This document shows, piece after piece, positions 11,942-55,803 of a stretch of 64,000 bases of DNA. The notes beneath the pieces are model-generated. The model did not search any database, was not told the origin of the DNA, and was given only the letters and a program-made list of their open reading frames with translations. Each line of letters opens with the position of its first letter. Positions within the stretch are counted from its first letter, which is position 1. The DNA is taken from positions 62,001-126,000 of the forward strand of contig NC_006513.1 in NCBI RefSeq assembly GCF_000025965.1, written 5' to 3'. The position numbers were made by a program, and so were the translations under genes. Source of the DNA: Aromatoleum aromaticum EbN1 (GTDB lineage Bacteria > Pseudomonadota > Gammaproteobacteria > Burkholderiales > Rhodocyclaceae).

Positions 11942-13330
11942 TCAGGCGGTCGCTGTTGCTGCTTCCGAAAACGATTGCGCCAGCGTATCGACTGCTTCCT
12001 GTCGCGCATCGTCCGCCTGCCCAGCGCCGAAAAGTTCCGACCATTCCTGATGGGCACGCGCCCGCAGCAAGGGCTCCGGGATCGGCCCTTCGCGCCATTG
12101 CCGCAGTTGCGGGTCGACCAGCCGGATCGGCGCCATCGCGGCGTGGCCGCGGGTTTCGAGCGCGTCGATGAGGCGCAGCTGGCGCAAGGCGAGCAGCCTC
12201 AGGATCGCGTCGTCTACGCTGAGCTCGCGCTGCCCGCGCAGTTTCTCGACCACGCGGTCGCCGAACTGCCGCACCGCCTGCCAGCCTCCGCCGGCGAGCG
12301 CTCCGAGCGCAGCAGCGGTGCCGAGCGTCAGTCCGCCGAGCATCAGGTCGATGCCGACTCCGGCGGCCGCTCCCGCCGCCGCGCCGGTGCCGAGCCGCAC
12401 GCCCATCGCACGGAAGGTCTCCGGGTTGAAGAGATCGTTCTCCCAGCGCCCGTCAAGCAGCGGCAGATCGCCCGCATCGACATCGTCCGAGCGGAACCGG
12501 TAGAGCGCGAGCAACGCGTCGACGCAAGCCTGCTCGCGCCGCCGCACATGCTCGTGCAGCGTCACGACCGCGTGCTCGATCGCCTGCGCTTCAGTCGCGA
12601 CGGCGACCCGCGCCGCGGCGACGTCGACCAGCAGTTCGGCAACGAGACTCAGCGCAGCGTCATGCCGGGTCCGCGCCTCGCGCTCACGGCACGCGACGAG
12701 GCGTTCGAGCGCCGGACGATGGACGTCGACGAGCGTCGCGAGCTTCTCGTACAGGCGCCGCTCGCCGTCGCGCTCCGGCGCGACCGTATCGAAGCGCACG
12801 ATCGCATGCAGTCCGAGCCGCGCGAGCGCCTCGCGCCACGACGATTCGTTGGCGGCCGAATCGCGCACGAAGTTCAGCACCGGCAGCAGCGGGATCGCGC
12901 AGCTGCCGAGGATCGTCAGCTCGTCGCGGTGCTTCGCGAGGACCGGATCGCGCACGTCGACGACATAGAACGCCGCATCGCTCGCGAGCATCTGGCGCAG
13001 CACTTTCGCCTCCTGCTCGAAGCGGTGGCCGGCGACCGGAGTCGCAAGGAAGCGCTCGATTCGTGCCGTGTCGTCAAGCCGCTCGCCGCCGGGCGCCTCG
13101 ATCGCCTCCAGCCGCTCGAGGAGCGCGATCGGGTCTTCGAGCCCGGGCGTGTCGTACAACTCGACGAGCACCTCGCCGTCGGCGAGCAGACGGGCGCCTT
13201 CGACATGACGGGTCGTGCTCGGCCGGCTCGACACCTCGCCGAAGCCGGTGTCGCGCGTCAGCGTGCGCATCAGCGACGTCTTGCCGGTGTTGGTATGCCC
13301 GACGACGGCGATGCGCAGCGGTCTAGTCAT
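11942..13330 (-). CDS. DUF3482-family GTPase
   Basis: 462 residues from ATG at 13330, preceded by GGGAG. The N-terminal half is an Era/EngA-like G domain: P-loop GHTNTGKTSLMRTL, switch region SSRPSTTRHV, DTPG motif in YDTPGLEDP. At the place of the usual NKxD motif it has LNFVRDS, so base recognition may be altered. The C-terminal half contains a Gly/Ala-rich amphipathic or membrane-inserting stretch (GTGAAAGAAAGVGIDLMLGG..., about 320-370), then a helical tail. The ATG overlaps the stop of the DUF2868 gene by 8 bp, so the two are translationally coupled. The DUF2868/DUF3482 pair recurs in proteobacteria and its function is not established; a role at the membrane is inferred. Confidence 0.85.
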   Translation of the reverse strand: MTRPLRIAVVGHTNTGKTSLMRTLTRDTGFGEVSSRPSTTRHVEGARLLADGEVLVELYDTPGLEDPIALLERLEAIEAPGGERLDDTARIERFLATPVAGHRFEQEAKVLRQMLASDAAFYVVDVRDPVLAKHRDELTILGSCAIPLLPVLNFVRDSAANESSWREALARLGLHAIVRFDTVAPERDGERRLYEKLATLVDVHRPALERLVACREREARTRHDAALSLVAELLVDVAAARVAVATEAQAIEHAVVTLHEHVRRREQACVDALLALYRFRSDDVDAGDLPLLDGRWENDLFNPETFRAMGVRLGTGAAAGAAAGVGIDLMLGGLTLGTAAALGALAGGGWQAVRQFGDRVVEKLRGQRELSVDDAILRLLALRQLRLIDALETRGHAAMAPIRLVDPQLRQWREGPIPEPLLRARAHQEWSELFGAGQADDARQEAVDTLAQSFSEAATATA

Positions 13331-14741
13331 TTCCGGCTCCCGTCCCGACGCCACGCAGCCAGTCCATCGCGACCGCCGGGGTGTCGATGACCCGTTCGGT
13401 CGTCATGCCGATACCATCCAGCGACTCCCGCCAGTGTGGCGCATGCCCGCCGGCGTCGCCCCCTGTCAGCCATACCCGGCAGTCGCCCGCGTGGCGCGAC
13501 AGCTCGGCAATCAGTTCGAGGCTGCCGCGATCCGGCGTCTGGCGCGCGTCGCACGCAACCAGTAGCCGCGCCGGCGGGTCGACCTGCAACTCGCCGACGA
13601 GGCGCTTGCGCTGCGCGCGGCTGTCGATGACTCCTGCATCGCGCACCCCCGCCGGCAGCGCGGGCGGCCATCCCGCGCCAGCCGGCAGCTCGAGGCCGAC
13701 CGCGAGCGGTGAGCCGCTGCCGAGCGGGTGCGCGCCATCCGCCCGCGGCCCTGCGAAGCGCCCCGGATCGGCGTCGGTGATGCCGATCCGCTCGCTCGCC
13801 GGCGCGAGCCGCGCGGCGAGCACCGCGTAGCCCGGCAATGCCAGGTCGAGCCGCAGGCGCGCGCGCCCGACGCGCCACAGCGCAAGACACATCGCCCACA
13901 GCAGCGCCCGGGGCACGATACCGTACATCGTCACGCAACCCACGAGCCACGACGACCATGCGATGCGCGCCGCCTCGTCGACGGCGACGGCTGCGCCGCT
14001 TGCGCGTACATGCTCCGCATCGGGCACTGCGAAGCCGACCTGCGCCGGCAGCCAGCCGACGATGCGCACGAGATGCACGAACACGTCCGCCGACAGGATC
14101 GTCGTTTCCCAAGCGAAGCCGTAGCGCCGCGCGGACAGGGTCGCGAGCAGGCCGACCAGCGCCCCGCACAGTGCAGCGAGCCACAATCCGTGCGTCACGG
14201 CGCCGAGCCACCAGCGCAACAGCCGGGCGCGCCCGAGCAGGCCCACGAGCGCCTTCGCTACGTACACCGCGGCGGGGCCGGCCCGCGACAACCGCGCCGA
14301 CAGCCACAGCCAGGCGCGCCCGAGTGCACCGCCCGCATCCCGCCCGCCGAGCGACAGTCCGACTCCCCACAGCAACAGGCTCAGCAGGTGCACGCCGAGC
14401 AGGCCGCCGAGCGCCCACACGACGTTGACCGCGCGCGTGCCGTCACCCAGCACTGCGAGCGCGGCGCCGAATCCGCTCACCAGCGCGACGGCCGACGCCA
14501 GCATCAACACCAGCCGGGACCGCGCGCGCCACGCCGCGATCATTCCGACCATTCCCTCGCGCTCGCCCAGCAGCAGGGCGCGGTGCACGATCCGCTCCTC
14601 GACACCGCCGTCGGTCGCGCGCACCCCGGCTACCGCATCACGGTCGTCGAACGGGCCCGCCGCCTCCTCGCGCAGCCGGATCGCCTCCGCCAGCCAGCGC
14701 GATTCGAAAGTCGTCAGTCGGATGGAATCGAGGGCACGCAT
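13323..14741 (-). CDS. DUF2868-family membrane protein
   Basis: 472 residues from ATG at 14741 (MRALDSIRLTTFESRW), chosen because this is where family-like sequence begins; no strong ribosome site is visible. A cytoplasmic N-terminal segment is followed by about four to five membrane helices (around 95-125, 140-165, 200-260, 315-335) and a soluble C-terminal part with LLVACDARQTPDRGSLELIAEL, which resembles a nucleotide-binding or Rossmann-like strand-turn. It is upstream gene of the pair with the DUF3482 GTPase, sharing an 8-bp overlap. No biochemical function is known for the family; the fixed pairing suggests a membrane anchor or effector for the GTPase. Confidence 0.8.
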   Translation of the reverse strand: MRALDSIRLTTFESRWLAEAIRLREEAAGPFDDRDAVAGVRATDGGVEERIVHRALLLGEREGMVGMIAAWRARSRLVLMLASAVALVSGFGAALAVLGDGTRAVNVVWALGGLLGVHLLSLLLWGVGLSLGGRDAGGALGRAWLWLSARLSRAGPAAVYVAKALVGLLGRARLLRWWLGAVTHGLWLAALCGALVGLLATLSARRYGFAWETTILSADVFVHLVRIVGWLPAQVGFAVPDAEHVRASGAAVAVDEAARIAWSSWLVGCVTMYGIVPRALLWAMCLALWRVGRARLRLDLALPGYAVLAARLAPASERIGITDADPGRFAGPRADGAHPLGSGSPLAVGLELPAGAGWPPALPAGVRDAGVIDSRAQRKRLVGELQVDPPARLLVACDARQTPDRGSLELIAELSRHAGDCRVWLTGGDAGGHAPHWRESLDGIGMTTERVIDTPAVAMDWLRGVGTGAGND

Positions 14742-15130
14742 GCGCGAAATCAGGTCCGGGTCACGATCAGGACGACAGGATAGCGGATCAGCGGCTGCAG
14801 TCCCGCGCGCTCGGGCGCCGTCCGTCGTCTTTCTCTCCCTGATCCCAATTCCGACGTCGATGCAGGATGCGGGAGAAAGGGGGGCGAGAAGCCCGGGAGA
14901 ATATGATTCTCGCATAGATAAAAAAATATACCCGTCAAACGGCAAAAGGCCTCAAGCGTGAATTAATCCGGGGTTCCGACCGCTGCCCACAAGACATTCA
15001 CAACCGACTGTCGCAGAAAGGAAAAACGAATCGCCACAACAGTTTTCAGGAAAAAGGCGAGAAGGGTCATGAATGCCTGCTTCAACCAAAAAAACATTGT
15101 CACGCCAGCGTGTAAAAAACTCCCGTAGAC
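14742..15130. other. Intergenic region with a perfect inverted repeat
   Basis: This gap between the DUF2868 gene and the tmRNA promoter is noticeably richer in A+T than its surroundings and contains no gene I can support. It holds a perfect 6-bp inverted repeat GAGAAT-ATG-ATTCTC at 14897-14911, upstream of the DUF2868 gene. That repeat may be an operator. It resembles a Fur site but has a 3-base centre instead of the 1-base centre of the 7-1-7 motif, so I do not call it Fur. Confidence 0.4.
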
Positions 15131-15159
15131 TTGAATCGAAGGGGCACTGCCCTTATAGT
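15131..15159 (+). promoter_or_regulatory. Sigma70 promoter of the tmRNA gene
   Basis: TTGAAT at 15131-15136 and TATAGT at 15154-15159, separated by exactly 17 bases. The predicted start (about 15165) lies directly before the acceptor half of the permuted tmRNA. Confidence 0.75.
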
Positions 15160-15164
15160 GCAAA

Positions 15165-15441
15165 GCATGGTTGTAATTCCGGCAACCCGGAGACGTTCTG
15201 GACGCGGGTTCGATTCCCGCCACCTCCACAGTGGGCATTCTCAAGAGTGTTCAGTGTGGGGGTGCACCGGTTTCGACAGGGCGGGCAATGGTGAGCAGGC
15301 AACCCGAGAGGCGACGGACGTAATCCGCGCAAATCCACAAACGCCAACGATGAGCGTTTCGCTGTAGCCGCTTAAGGCAACAGCCGGGGCCGCCTGAGCC
15401 CTGTTACCAAAGACGGCTGGCGGGGGCTTCGGCCCCCGCTT
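15165..15441 (+). ncRNA. ssrA: Circularly permuted two-piece tmRNA
   Basis: The 3' tRNA-like half comes first. The T arm is GCGGG-TTCGATT-CCCGC (15204-15220), followed by the acceptor strand CACCTCC (15221-15227) and A; no full CCA is encoded. After a ~30-base intervening segment, the coding half starts at 15258 with GGGGGTG, which pairs with CACCTCC over 7 bp (one G-U), then the tmRNA signature GGTTTCGACAGGG. The tag reading frame at 15343-15375 encodes ANDERFAVAA and TAA. The piece ends in a GC-rich hairpin with a TTCG loop (15420-15440) that probably acts as terminator. This order (acceptor piece, then coding piece) is the known permuted form of some betaproteobacteria. The RNA rescues stalled ribosomes and tags nascent peptides for proteolysis. 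The 5' end of the acceptor piece is inferred from the promoter. Confidence 0.9.
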
Positions 15442-15513
15442 CACGTTCACCGTAGTTGGTCATCAGCTGCAACCTGGCTGTCCTTCTCCCGTGATCCTGT
15501 CCGCCAACGGGGC

Positions 15514-16752
15514 TTACCGCACCAGGAACGGCAGGTTTGCCGTTGCAGCCTTGCCGTTGCTGTCGCGCAAGGTGATGAAGAGCCGGTAGGGGCCGGGCTG
15601 GCGGGGGGCCACGAAGCGGACAGTGGCGGCGTCGGCATGCAGCGTTTGCACCGGAACACGGGCGGGAACCGGCTCGGCGTCGGAATCTGGCTTCCAGCCC
15701 CGGCTCTCGGCCAACACTTTCCATTCCGTGGTTAACGTCGATCCGTCGAAGGACACCGCGTCGACGCCGGCCGAAATTTCCTGCCCTGGCGCGAACTCGT
15801 CGGCGGCAATGCCGATGCCGCGAATCAGCGGAGCGGACTCGGGCACCGGCTTGCCCCACGCACGGCTTAACGCATCGGTCATCGCAGTAAGGCTGCCATC
15901 TGGCAGCAGAAGGCCGTGCCAGGTTTCAGTTTGCTCCTGCTTCGCACCCCACAGGAAGGGGAAAACGCCGACGACCTGGGGCTCGCGCGCGAGATGGTCG
16001 AGCGCGTCGCGAAAATAGGCTGCCTTCTCGGTGCTGGTGGGCTCCACCGGCGCGCCCCAGGGCTTGCGTCCGGCCTGCCATTGACCGAGCGGGCCCAACT
16101 CGGCAATCACGATCGGTTTGGTGACGCCTGCCGCTTGCAGCCGGCGCACGATCTCGAACACCGAACCGCCGAAAGCGTTGACGCCCAGCAGATCCGCGTT
16201 CGGGCAGCAATCAGCGAGCCGTCGGAGATTCTCGTTGCTGTTGTCGGACACCACCATCAACGTCGGGTGCGCCGGGTCGAGCCCCTTGACAATACCGGCG
16301 AGGCGGTTCACCTCGCGCCAGGCTGGTATCGGGTCGGGCTGCGCGAGCTCCACCTCGTTGCCCACGCCCCAAGCCAGCAGCGCAGGATGACTGCGGTGCC
16401 GTAGCACAAACTCGCGTATGCCCTGCTCCTGTGCGTGCACCATCGCAGGGTCGTCGAGCCCGAAGCCCAGGCGCGGATGAGCCACCCACAGTCCCATCAC
16501 CACTTTCAGCCCGAGGCGCTCGGCCTCGTCGAGCACCCAGGCGTCCGCCTCGCTGTACACCCGCACGACGCGGGCGCCCGCATCGGCGAGTTTCTTCAAC
16601 CCGATCCGGTCGCTGCTGAAGGCCGCCCCCTGCCACCGCGACTGCCCGACGGGAACGTCTGCCGACAATGCGGACAAGGCCAGCGCAGACAGAAATGCCG
16701 CTGCGAGCGCAGCAGCGAGACAACGGATGGAAGCAGTCTTTCTTATCGTCAT
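15514..16752 (-). CDS. Secreted glycoside hydrolase-like TIM-barrel protein
   Basis: 412 residues from ATG at 16752, which overlaps the SRAP stop as ATGA. A signal peptide (MTIRKTASIRCLAAALAAAFLSALALSALSA, cut near SADVP; shown in part) directs export. The body is a clan GH-A-like barrel: AGARVVRVYSEADAW, LGLKVVMGLWVAHPRLGFG, the acid/base motif GVGNEVEL, and a second Glu in IVIAELGPLGQW that fits the nucleophile position. A C-terminal beta-rich domain (about 305-412) follows. The layout resembles GH2/GH5-type glucanases, but substrate and exact family cannot be named. It converges on the tmRNA gene with 70 bp between them. Confidence 0.75.
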   Translation of the reverse strand: MTIRKTASIRCLAAALAAAFLSALALSALSADVPVGQSRWQGAAFSSDRIGLKKLADAGARVVRVYSEADAWVLDEAERLGLKVVMGLWVAHPRLGFGLDDPAMVHAQEQGIREFVLRHRSHPALLAWGVGNEVELAQPDPIPAWREVNRLAGIVKGLDPAHPTLMVVSDNSNENLRRLADCCPNADLLGVNAFGGSVFEIVRRLQAAGVTKPIVIAELGPLGQWQAGRKPWGAPVEPTSTEKAAYFRDALDHLAREPQVVGVFPFLWGAKQEQTETWHGLLLPDGSLTAMTDALSRAWGKPVPESAPLIRGIGIAADEFAPGQEISAGVDAVSFDGSTLTTEWKVLAESRGWKPDSDAEPVPARVPVQTLHADAATVRFVAPRQPGPYRLFITLRDSNGKAATANLPFLVR

Positions 16753-17450
16753 ACCCTTGAACGTCCTTCGTTGCCGGCTTCGAGCGGCGCGACGAGTTCC
16801 GGCCCTTCGTTGCGCACGTTGCCGACGCGTTTCGTCACGGGGTGCATCCGGACCAGAGCCGAGTCGTACGGCACGAGCAGCCGGCGGACCAGCTCGGGAT
16901 GGGTGTCCTTGCTCAGCCACAGGTCGTAATCGTCCTCGGGGACGATGACGGGCATGCGCTCGTGCAGTTCGCCCATCGCGTCGTTCGCGTCCGTCGTGAT
17001 GATCGCGAAGGTGTCGAGCGTCTCGCCATCGGGCCTGCTCCACCGCTCCCATAGCCCTGCGAAAGCGAACAGGCGGTCATTCGCCGGACGAATGAAATAC
17101 GGCTGTTTGCCGCCCACGACTTTCTGCCATTCGTAAAATCCCGAGGCCGGCACGAGGCAGCGGCGGCTCTTGAACGCGTTGCGGAAGCTCGCCTTCTCGG
17201 CCAGCGTCTCGCAGCGGGCGTTGATGAGGCGCGCGCCGATCGTCTCGTCCTTCGCCCAGGACGGGATGAGGCCCCAGCGCAACAGATGCGCCACCCGCTC
17301 ACCTGAGGCCCGCTGCCGGATGACGGGCAGCTTCTGCATCGGCGCCGCGTTGTAGCGCGGAGGAAAGTCCTGAACCAGCGGGTCGATATCACAGCCGAAC
17401 TGCTCGCGCAGCCGGGAGATCGAACCATGGAGGGCGTAGCGACCGCACAT
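16749..17450 (-). CDS. SRAP (HMCES/YedK) family abasic-site-shielding protein
   Basis: 233 residues. It begins MCGRYAL, so processing of Met exposes the catalytic Cys2 that crosslinks to abasic sites in single-stranded DNA. Other family motifs are RYNAAPMQKLPVIR, RWGLIPSWAKD, NARCETLAEKASFRNAFKSR, RCLVPASGFYEW and the catalytic-His region LHERMPVIV. Family length is 200-240 residues, so it is complete. It protects abasic lesions during replication. Its stop overlaps the start of the secreted glycosidase by 4 bp, implying co-transcription although no functional link is evident. No LexA-type box was seen upstream (17451-17714). Confidence 0.93.
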   Translation of the reverse strand: MCGRYALHGSISRLREQFGCDIDPLVQDFPPRYNAAPMQKLPVIRQRASGERVAHLLRWGLIPSWAKDETIGARLINARCETLAEKASFRNAFKSRRCLVPASGFYEWQKVVGGKQPYFIRPANDRLFAFAGLWERWSRPDGETLDTFAIITTDANDAMGELHERMPVIVPEDDYDLWLSKDTHPELVRRLLVPYDSALVRMHPVTKRVGNVRNEGPELVAPLEAGNEGRSRV

Positions 17451-53937: not shown

Positions 53938-55803
53938 ATGGAAGAAGCCGTTGGCAAAATCTGGCACCGCTGGGTCACCCGCACGGCGCTGGGCAATCAC
54001 CCCGAAGCTGTCGTCAAGCTGAAGGAGATCGAGCGCACCGCTGGCGTGTTCTTCCGCGCCCTCGGCGGCGATCCCGGCCTGCGCGTCGCCGCTGCCACGG
54101 AGGACGAACATGGCGCGCGGCGCAGCCTGTTGAAACGCATCGCGGGCGCTGGCGAGCGGGCCGCCCGAGCACGCATGGACGCCTCGACGCTGCGGCTGCC
54201 GCCGGAGATCGACGCTTTCCCCGAGCGCTCGTTGAACCGCGACCTCTACCTGTGGCTCGCCGCGCTCGCAGCGGCGCACGGCAGCATCGAAGCGGATGGG
54301 CCGGACGCGGCCGACAACGATTTCCGCTGCAACCAGTTCGCGACCTGCGCGGCGCTGCACATGTGGCCAGGGATCGAACCGCGCTACCGGCGCCTCGTCG
54401 CGGCCTATCTGCCGACGCGCCCGCGTCCCGAGAAACTCCCTGCGGCCGAGGCCGAACGCGAACGTGCGATTCGCCAGGCGCTCGAAGCGCCCGGCACCGT
54501 CCGCGCGCTGCCGCCGGTCCCGGCTGGGACGCCCCCCGCGCAACCGGTATTGCTGTGGCTCACCGGTTCCCTGTCCGGCACCGCCGCGAGCCGACGCAAC
54601 ACCGGCGCCGACCCCGAGCAAACCGCCGACGGCGGGCCGCCGTCATTCGATGAAAACGAGCGCCACGCCCACCGTGCCGAGCAGGTCGACATGCCGCAGG
54701 AAAAGAACGGCCTGCTGATCTTCTTCCGCGCCGAAAGCCTGCTTGCGGTCGCCGAGTTCCTGCGTGTCAACCGTCCCACCGACGACGAGCCCGATCCGAA
54801 TGCCGCCAGCGCCGCCCGCGACCTCGATCACTTGTCGCTCGCGCAGGACACGGACCGCGTGGCCTCGAAAGTGCGCTTCGATCTCGACCTCCCTTCGGCA
54901 GCCGAAGACGACATCGTACTCGGCGCCGGCATCCCGCTGCCGGAATGGGACTACCGCAAAGGCGTGCTGCTGCAGGATCACGTACGTCTGGCCGAGCTTG
55001 CCGCGCGCGACGCCCCGCCCTGCCCGCTGCCCGAACCGCTGCGGCGCACCGCGCGGCGCCTGCACCAGCAATTCGCCGCGCTGCAGCCGGGCCGGCGCTG
55101 GTTGAAGGGGCGCTCCGATGGCACCGAACTCGACCTCGACGCGGTGGTCCGCGCACAGACCGATCGCTCGGTCGGGCGCAATCCGTCCGATCAACTGTAT
55201 CTGTCGCTCGAAAAACGCGAACGCGATCTGGCCTGCATGGTGCTCGCCGACCTGTCACTGTCGACCGACAGCTGGGTGTCGAGCGAAGCGCGCGTCATCG
55301 ACGTCATCCGCGACGCGCTGCTGCTGTTCGGCGAGGCGCTCGGCGCGACGGGGGATCGTTTCGCGATGGCCGGGTTCTCGTCGGTCAAGCGCAGCCAGGT
55401 CCGCTTTCATCGGCTGAAAGACTTCAACGACCGCTTCGACGATCGCATCCGCGGGCGCATCAGCGCGATCAAGCCGGGCTACTACACCCGACTGGGCGCG
55501 GCGCTCCGGCACGCAAGCCAGCTGCTTGCAACAGAACAGGCCGCCCGGCGCATCCTGCTGATCCTGTCGGACGGCAAGCCGAACGATCTCGATCTGTACG
55601 AAGGACGCTACGGCATCGAGGACACTCGCGTCGCCGTCGGCGAAGCGCGCAAACAGGGCCTCGTTCCGTTCTGTGTCACAATCGACCGCGAGGGCGCGGG
55701 CTACCTGCCGCACCTCTTCGGCCCGGCCGGTTACGCGGTGATTCGCAAGCCAGAGGAACTGCCGGCGCGACTTCCGCTGTTCTACGCTCAACTGACACGG
55801 TAA
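53938..55803 (+). CDS. norD: NorD, von Willebrand factor A-domain protein
   Basis: 621 residues from ATG at 53938. The C-terminal ~200 residues are a VWA domain with MIDAS sequence VLADLSLSTDSW, FAMAGFSSVKR and ILLILSDGKPND. The N-terminal part is helical and variable, with an acidic/proline-rich middle (about 200-290). NorD works with the AAA+ protein NorQ to activate NorB by FeB insertion. Length is typical (600-640). dnr follows after 2 bp. Confidence 0.95.
   Translation: MEEAVGKIWHRWVTRTALGNHPEAVVKLKEIERTAGVFFRALGGDPGLRVAAATEDEHGARRSLLKRIAGAGERAARARMDASTLRLPPEIDAFPERSLNRDLYLWLAALAAAHGSIEADGPDAADNDFRCNQFATCAALHMWPGIEPRYRRLVAAYLPTRPRPEKLPAAEAERERAIRQALEAPGTVRALPPVPAGTPPAQPVLLWLTGSLSGTAASRRNTGADPEQTADGGPPSFDENERHAHRAEQVDMPQEKNGLLIFFRAESLLAVAEFLRVNRPTDDEPDPNAASAARDLDHLSLAQDTDRVASKVRFDLDLPSAAEDDIVLGAGIPLPEWDYRKGVLLQDHVRLAELAARDAPPCPLPEPLRRTARRLHQQFAALQPGRRWLKGRSDGTELDLDAVVRAQTDRSVGRNPSDQLYLSLEKRERDLACMVLADLSLSTDSWVSSEARVIDVIRDALLLFGEALGATGDRFAMAGFSSVKRSQVRFHRLKDFNDRFDDRIRGRISAIKPGYYTRLGAALRHASQLLATEQAARRILLILSDGKPNDLDLYEGRYGIEDTRVAVGEARKQGLVPFCVTIDREGAGYLPHLFGPAGYAVIRKPEELPARLPLFYAQLTR

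Follow-up and report, generated by a model that had tools for sequence, protein, structure and literature searches.

The window, the whole 64,000-nucleotide stretch of the Aromatoleum aromaticum EbN1 genome analysed here (contig NC_006513.1, positions 62,001 to 126,000), contains a permuted gene for tmRNA, the RNA that rescues stuck ribosomes. The genome's best match to the Rfam model RF01850 (beta_tmRNA) lies at 15117-15443 on the plus strand, at 306.1 bits (gathering score 84 bits), an E-value of 9.1e-99 and with model positions 1-331 of 331 aligned. RF04321 (tmRNA_permuted) matches the locus over its full model at 161.5 bits, and ARAGORN calls a permuted tmRNA (tmRNA*) at 15139-15466 with the tag ANDERFAVAA. 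The acceptor half precedes the coding half, and the tag frame with its stop sits behind the GGTTTCGAC strand. The parts of the locus are as follows.

15131-15159, plus strand: promoter; -35 TTGAAT at 15131-15136, 17-nt spacer, -10 TATAGT at 15154-15159
15165-15228, plus strand: acceptor piece, the 3' half of the tRNA-like domain (RF01850 and RF04321 alignments)
Within 15169-15200, plus strand: P2 strand (RF01850 and RF04321 alignments)
15204-15220, plus strand: T arm with a 5-bp stem (Rfam pairing); T-arm sequence GGGTTCGATTCCC at 15206-15218
15221-15227, plus strand: acceptor 3' strand CACCTCC, with discriminator A15228 next (from the sequence)
15229-15257, plus strand: intervening segment of 29 nt, a predicted hairpin extending the acceptor helix and probably removed
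15258-15443, plus strand: coding piece with acceptor 5' strand GGGGGTG (15258-15264), GGTTTCGAC (15269-15277), tag and 3' hairpin
15343-15375, plus strand: tag frame GCC...TAA, ANDERFAVAA plus stop (ARAGORN and sequence)
15419-15439, plus strand: 3' hairpin, paired across relatives, with no T run behind it
11945-14945 and 15517-17450, minus strand: flanking genes for a GTPase with DUF3482, a DUF2868 protein, a glycosyl hydrolase family 2 domain protein and an SRAP protein

A preliminary description of this DNA, made from its letters, had proposed the permuted order, which the full-length RF01850 match and the ARAGORN call confirm; a 7-bp pairing of GGGGGTG with CACCTCC across the halves, which holds, its third pair (15260/15225) being a G.U; the frame for ANDERFAVAA, which is present; and a TTGAAT-17-TATAGT promoter directly upstream, which lies where it was placed and is the only promoter-like site in 14950-15520 (shuffles average 0.1). 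The excised segment that it predicted around 15229-15257 agrees, at 29 nt, with the acceptor borders. The bases after the discriminator are CAG, and so CCA is not encoded in this gene.

A single ssrA gene over cut-off

Across the genome (4,727,255 bases, 3 contigs) no second place scored over the RF01850 cut-off, and no one-piece tmRNA over that of RF00023 (47 bits), the best match reaching 32.2 bits. The preliminary description had held that a one-piece tmRNA elsewhere, combined with no match here to Rfam's permuted betaproteobacterial model and no transcript from this place, would refute it; no one-piece gene scored over cut-off, and that model matches here at 306 bits. It had also warned that such genes can be missed by standard tRNA or one-piece tmRNA searches, or marked at the T arm only. 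This proved right for the one-piece model, as RF00023 reaches only 26.3 bits at the locus, on 15189-15231 (G000:C1:77189-77231), but not for ARAGORN, RF01850 and RF04321, all of which detect the gene. A gene for SmpB is present in the genome (178.3 bits vs a cut-off of 119.1). We conclude that the locus is indeed a permuted tmRNA gene, correctly read, and the single ssrA over cut-off.

Weak RF01850 matches elsewhere in the genome (L002, L003) were rejected as tandem copies of a tRNA-Ala/Glu/Asp cluster; at L002 (1454-2191) the repeat unit is 425 bases. Elsewhere in the window, ARAGORN calls a tRNA-Arg (tcg) at 54438-54517 on the minus strand that is absent from the Rfam gathering list and is perhaps degenerate.

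Relation to known models

The likeness to RF01850 extends to the full-length match, the order, the promoter region, the tag region and the hairpins, with no difference of substance. The RF01850 lineage is reportedly that of Sharkady and Williams 2004. RF04321 is a merged model that, in the available part of PMC11915505, covers the tRNA-like domain only. The one-piece tmRNA of RF00023 probably works alike through its T arm, acceptor and tag, with the halves in swapped order at the present locus. The permuted family and its two-piece form are known from the accessible portions of PMC11915505, PMC9004378, PMC3985003, PMC4131195, PMC4383926, PMC10085705, PMC3968760 and PMC3978253, and within that family the present gene is an ordinary case.

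Conservation of the promoter and of the fold

For comparison we used 113 readable permuted genes, obtained from 115 loci: those of the family's 113 permuted genomes minus G212 (a contig-end fragment) and G173 (unreadable), plus G443 and G053 (another family). Promoter scoring covered the 38 of the 113 that carry the exact start anchor. At least 9 of 12 promoter positions were matched in 30 of these 38, vs 8 of 2300 random 60-mers from the same loci, and the spacer is 17 nt in 37 of them. A terminator scan at the locus found none.

Covariation was measured on 37 of the 113 genes, about one per genus, each with an ARAGORN tag starting AND and not running off its locus. The Rfam structure pairs in 93.7% of cells vs 86.7% after shuffling (reached in 0 of 500 shuffles), and in 40-50% when the partner is slid by 1-3 columns; pairs changed on both sides number 23 vs 12.0 shuffled (0 of 500). 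Every cell is paired in helices 3, 4, 5 and 8 and in the T-arm helix, where 3 of 5 pairs show double changes; helices 6 (74%) and 7 (81%) are weaker. In the window, five Rfam pairs are non-standard (15188/15289, 15307/15318, 15308/15317, 15395/15414 and 15397/15413). The fold of 15165-15330 has z = -2.56, with 1 of 200 shuffles equally stable.

The acceptor helix, read over all 113 genes with a search pattern that fixed some positions and so could not see every mismatch, is CACCTCC/GGGGGTG in 103, CATCTCC/GGGGATG in 5, CATCTCC/GGGGGTG in 2, CAGCTCC/GGGGCTG in 2 and CGTCTCC/GGGGACG in 1. This amounts to three kinds of full compensation in 8 genes and a half change to G.U in 2. Compensation of this kind lends support to the structure and, with it, to the acceptor helix linking the halves. 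The third acceptor pair (G3.U70), the alanine identity pair, is U.G in all 37 aligned genes.

Two designs of the intervening segment

Counted from the base after the discriminator, the intervening segment falls into two classes. The long class (82 of 113 genes) has segments of 23-51 nt, mostly a hairpin that lengthens the acceptor helix; the short class (31 genes) has 7 nt, CCA plus 4 nt (30 genes), or 9 nt, CCA plus 6 nt (1 gene), with L310, L317, L307 and L325 as examples. CCA directly follows the discriminator in 8 of 82 long-class and 31 of 31 short-class genes. For tmRNA in general, the part of PMC11915505 available notes that CCA is not encoded at its position in every gene. Short-class genes occur in the single-contig genomes G167, G171, G200 and G304, so this class does not stem from misassembled fragments.

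Among 74 distinct long segments the acceptor helix is extended by a mean of 7.4 contiguous pairs vs 0.70 in shuffled segments; the extension is at least 5 pairs in 48 (1.2% of shuffles) and at most 3 in 26. Pair types in these hairpins vary on both sides at several positions. RF01850 leaves the intervening segment unpaired; in contrast, predicted folds pair the discriminator in 73 of the 74, and the two bases after it in 60 and 72. All 7 distinct short segments have an extension of 0 and an unpaired discriminator, but the two following bases are paired in 2 and 3 of the 7 predicted folds, which leaves the short end open in most cases though not in all.

In the window gene the predicted helix continues through ACA/TGT, and all six permuted Aromatoleum genes read ACAG (not ACC) from the discriminator onward, paired with the leader in the predicted fold. 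According to the accessible text of PMC9433436, RNase P works more slowly when at least two leader bases pair with RCCA, which makes plain RNase P cutting doubtful here. We infer from these modelled folds that RNase P alone may not suffice to cut the long design, and that maturation of the short one may differ. The two segment classes thus suggest two maturation routes.

Proposed maturation and alternatives

We take it as very nearly certain that the locus is the genome's sole ssrA, in the circularly permuted betaproteobacterial form; its RNA would be processed into two pieces and serve in trans-translation. One precursor would run from the gene's own promoter through the acceptor half and the hairpin segment into the coding half. 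Removal of the intervening segment would involve a cut in or near the hairpin, with RNase P generating the 5' terminus at G15258 and 3' trimming back to A15228. CCA, being absent from the gene, would be put on by the CCA-adding enzyme. The two pieces would be held together by the acceptor helix and P2, and the alanine-charged, SmpB-bound RNA would enter stalled ribosomes, its frame adding ANDERFAVAA for proteolysis.

The five non-standard pairs in the window might instead mark a decayed or silent permuted copy in a cell whose ribosomes are rescued by other factors. We consider this extremely improbable, as the tag frame is intact, the promoter is conserved, the 306-bit match is full-length, helices 3, 4, 5 and 8 pair in every cell of the 37 genes, and no other ssrA scores over cut-off. 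Charging of a tRNA needs a free 3' end behind the discriminator, so at least one cut must be made. This requirement weighs against an RNA cut once only, or left joined, and acting as one molecule, as does the two-piece RNA reported for permuted genes, with function shown in Caulobacter, in the part of PMC3985003 available. The predicted leader-RCCA pairing does favour such an RNA, in that pairing of this kind slows RNase P in the portion of PMC9433436 at hand; we nonetheless judge it very unlikely and retain the processed two-piece RNA.

Distribution of the two forms in the family

By these cut-offs, the 297 genomes of the family divide into 111 with the permuted form only, 158 with the one-piece form only, 2 with both and 26 with neither, the last class including incomplete genomes. 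The number of genomes over the RF00023 cut-off is 160-162, the difference probably being G429 (typed neither) and G251 (permuted), as judged from E-values only. Partial permuted matches in G356 and G376 were ruled out as odd variants, both ending at contig ends. In a sample of the order, the RF01850 cut-off is exceeded by 4 of 150 genomes, one of them the window genome.

Of 68 genera, 13 contain both forms: in 11 these come from different genomes, and in the other 2 (g104, g110) solely from a genome that passes both cut-offs. Mis-binning of draft bins may add to this count. Of the two genomes scoring for both, G161 is likely mis-binned, as its permuted gene sits on an 11.9-kb contig and the sequences flanking it cluster with those of genus g4; the other is G271. 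Single-contig genomes represent both forms in Aromatoleum and in genus g4. Close relatives switch between the permuted and the ordinary form, which was less expected than the gene itself.

The genomic surroundings were compared by flank clusters, redone at 50% identity because the low-identity version chained loci, and then replaced by a direct test for ubiG. This gene lies at most 3 kb upstream in 20 of the 24 one-piece loci tested, one of the remaining four having only 240 bases there, and in 21 of 113 permuted loci, of which 94 offered 1.4 kb or more of upstream sequence. Two genomes of genus g111, G168 (permuted; L353) and G227 (one-piece; L354), share a left flank of 9.7 kb at 84% identity that ends about 100 bases short of ssrA; their right flanks show no match. 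One site can thus carry either form. Islands were dropped as the cause of this difference, no integrase being seen by eye among the ORFs near ssrA.

The two forms within Aromatoleum

Of 17 Aromatoleum genomes, 6 pass only the RF01850 cut-off and 11 only that of RF00023. The two forms occupy different loci: the one-piece gene is downstream of ubiG in 11 of 11, and the permuted gene lies away from ubiG, with a right flank common to five species and a left flank also common to three of them (G000, G422 and G408, A. buckelii). In A. diolicum (G313) the permuted gene is at another locus, where only 289 bp are shared, at 94% identity. The ompA-ubiG stretch is present in all six permuted genomes, and an rRNA operon follows ubiG in G000, G408 and G422. 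Beside ubiG in these six genomes we found no one-piece remnant by Rfam tmRNA search at E up to 1, and only chance-size matches by short-word BLAST, the search in G443 (A. anaerobium; L241) reaching only 138 bases past ubiG.

One history would have the permuted gene gained once in Aromatoleum and then moved, with the one-piece gene lost or kept by line, rather than two transfers. The six permuted genes form one clade with support 1.0 in a tmRNA tree (built without the three short genes of G376, G329 and G356), and the AU test does not reject grouping the six hosts as one clade (p 0.151), both of which favour this history. Left free, however, the six-gene host tree (8844 columns, with partial data for G359 and G443 and odd base make-up in G445) groups A. 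diolicum with one-piece species (88/91), and the separate A. diolicum locus with its short shared stretch also speaks against the single gain. The tree results therefore fit one old gain with relocation and losses as they fit two gains, and we place the single gain at a little under even.

Permuted genes on mobile elements

Permuted genes called by ARAGORN also occur on a Cupriavidus plasmid (L270, NZ_CP017753.1; 94% of the query, 75% identity), on a Pandoraea plasmid typed as conjugative (L271, NZ_CP011518.2; 56% of the query) and on Stenotrophomonas phage DLP6 (47% of the query). No listed feature lies under the match on either large plasmid, and the predicted tag of the Pandoraea gene is unusual. 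None of 31 phage records with a match covers 80% of the query. Eleven IMG/VR contigs match a sequence pattern, of which 11 pass RF04321 and 4 pass RF01850; one of them, L268 (298 bits), may be host DNA beside a provirus. The four tested flanking genes in the window include no integrase.

In the single-contig genome G258 (L357), about 8.8 kb separate an intact permuted ssrA from an ssrA fragment that comprises the promoter and the acceptor piece up to the T arm. A phage integrase domain protein adjoins the fragment and a resolvase lies further in, and by its sequence the 8.8 kb is apparently an element integrated in the T arm of the permuted ssrA.

Implications

We tentatively suggest, as a possibility that we do not favour, that ssrA has repeatedly switched in this family between the one-piece and the permuted form, that permuted genes come in two processing designs needing different enzymes to split and finish the RNA, and that elements integrating in the T arm help to move or replace the gene. 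One design would be a hairpin that buries the discriminator and the CC positions, with CCA mostly unencoded, in contrast to a CCA-plus-4-nt loop with CCA encoded. In the partial texts covered by our literature search, the 2004 lineage paper lying outside its scope, within-genus form switching, the hairpin segment and the CCA-plus-4-nt class were not found.

What merits a specialist's time is how the two forms are distributed, together with the pair of segment designs. For permuted tRNAs, the available portion of PMC3978253 asks by what means an intervening segment of very few bases is taken out when it lies next to an encoded CCA; with the two designs seen here, that question would become testable in bacteria. 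With single-contig genomes of both forms, Aromatoleum supplies matched species in which to weigh the benefits of a split tmRNA against its costs.
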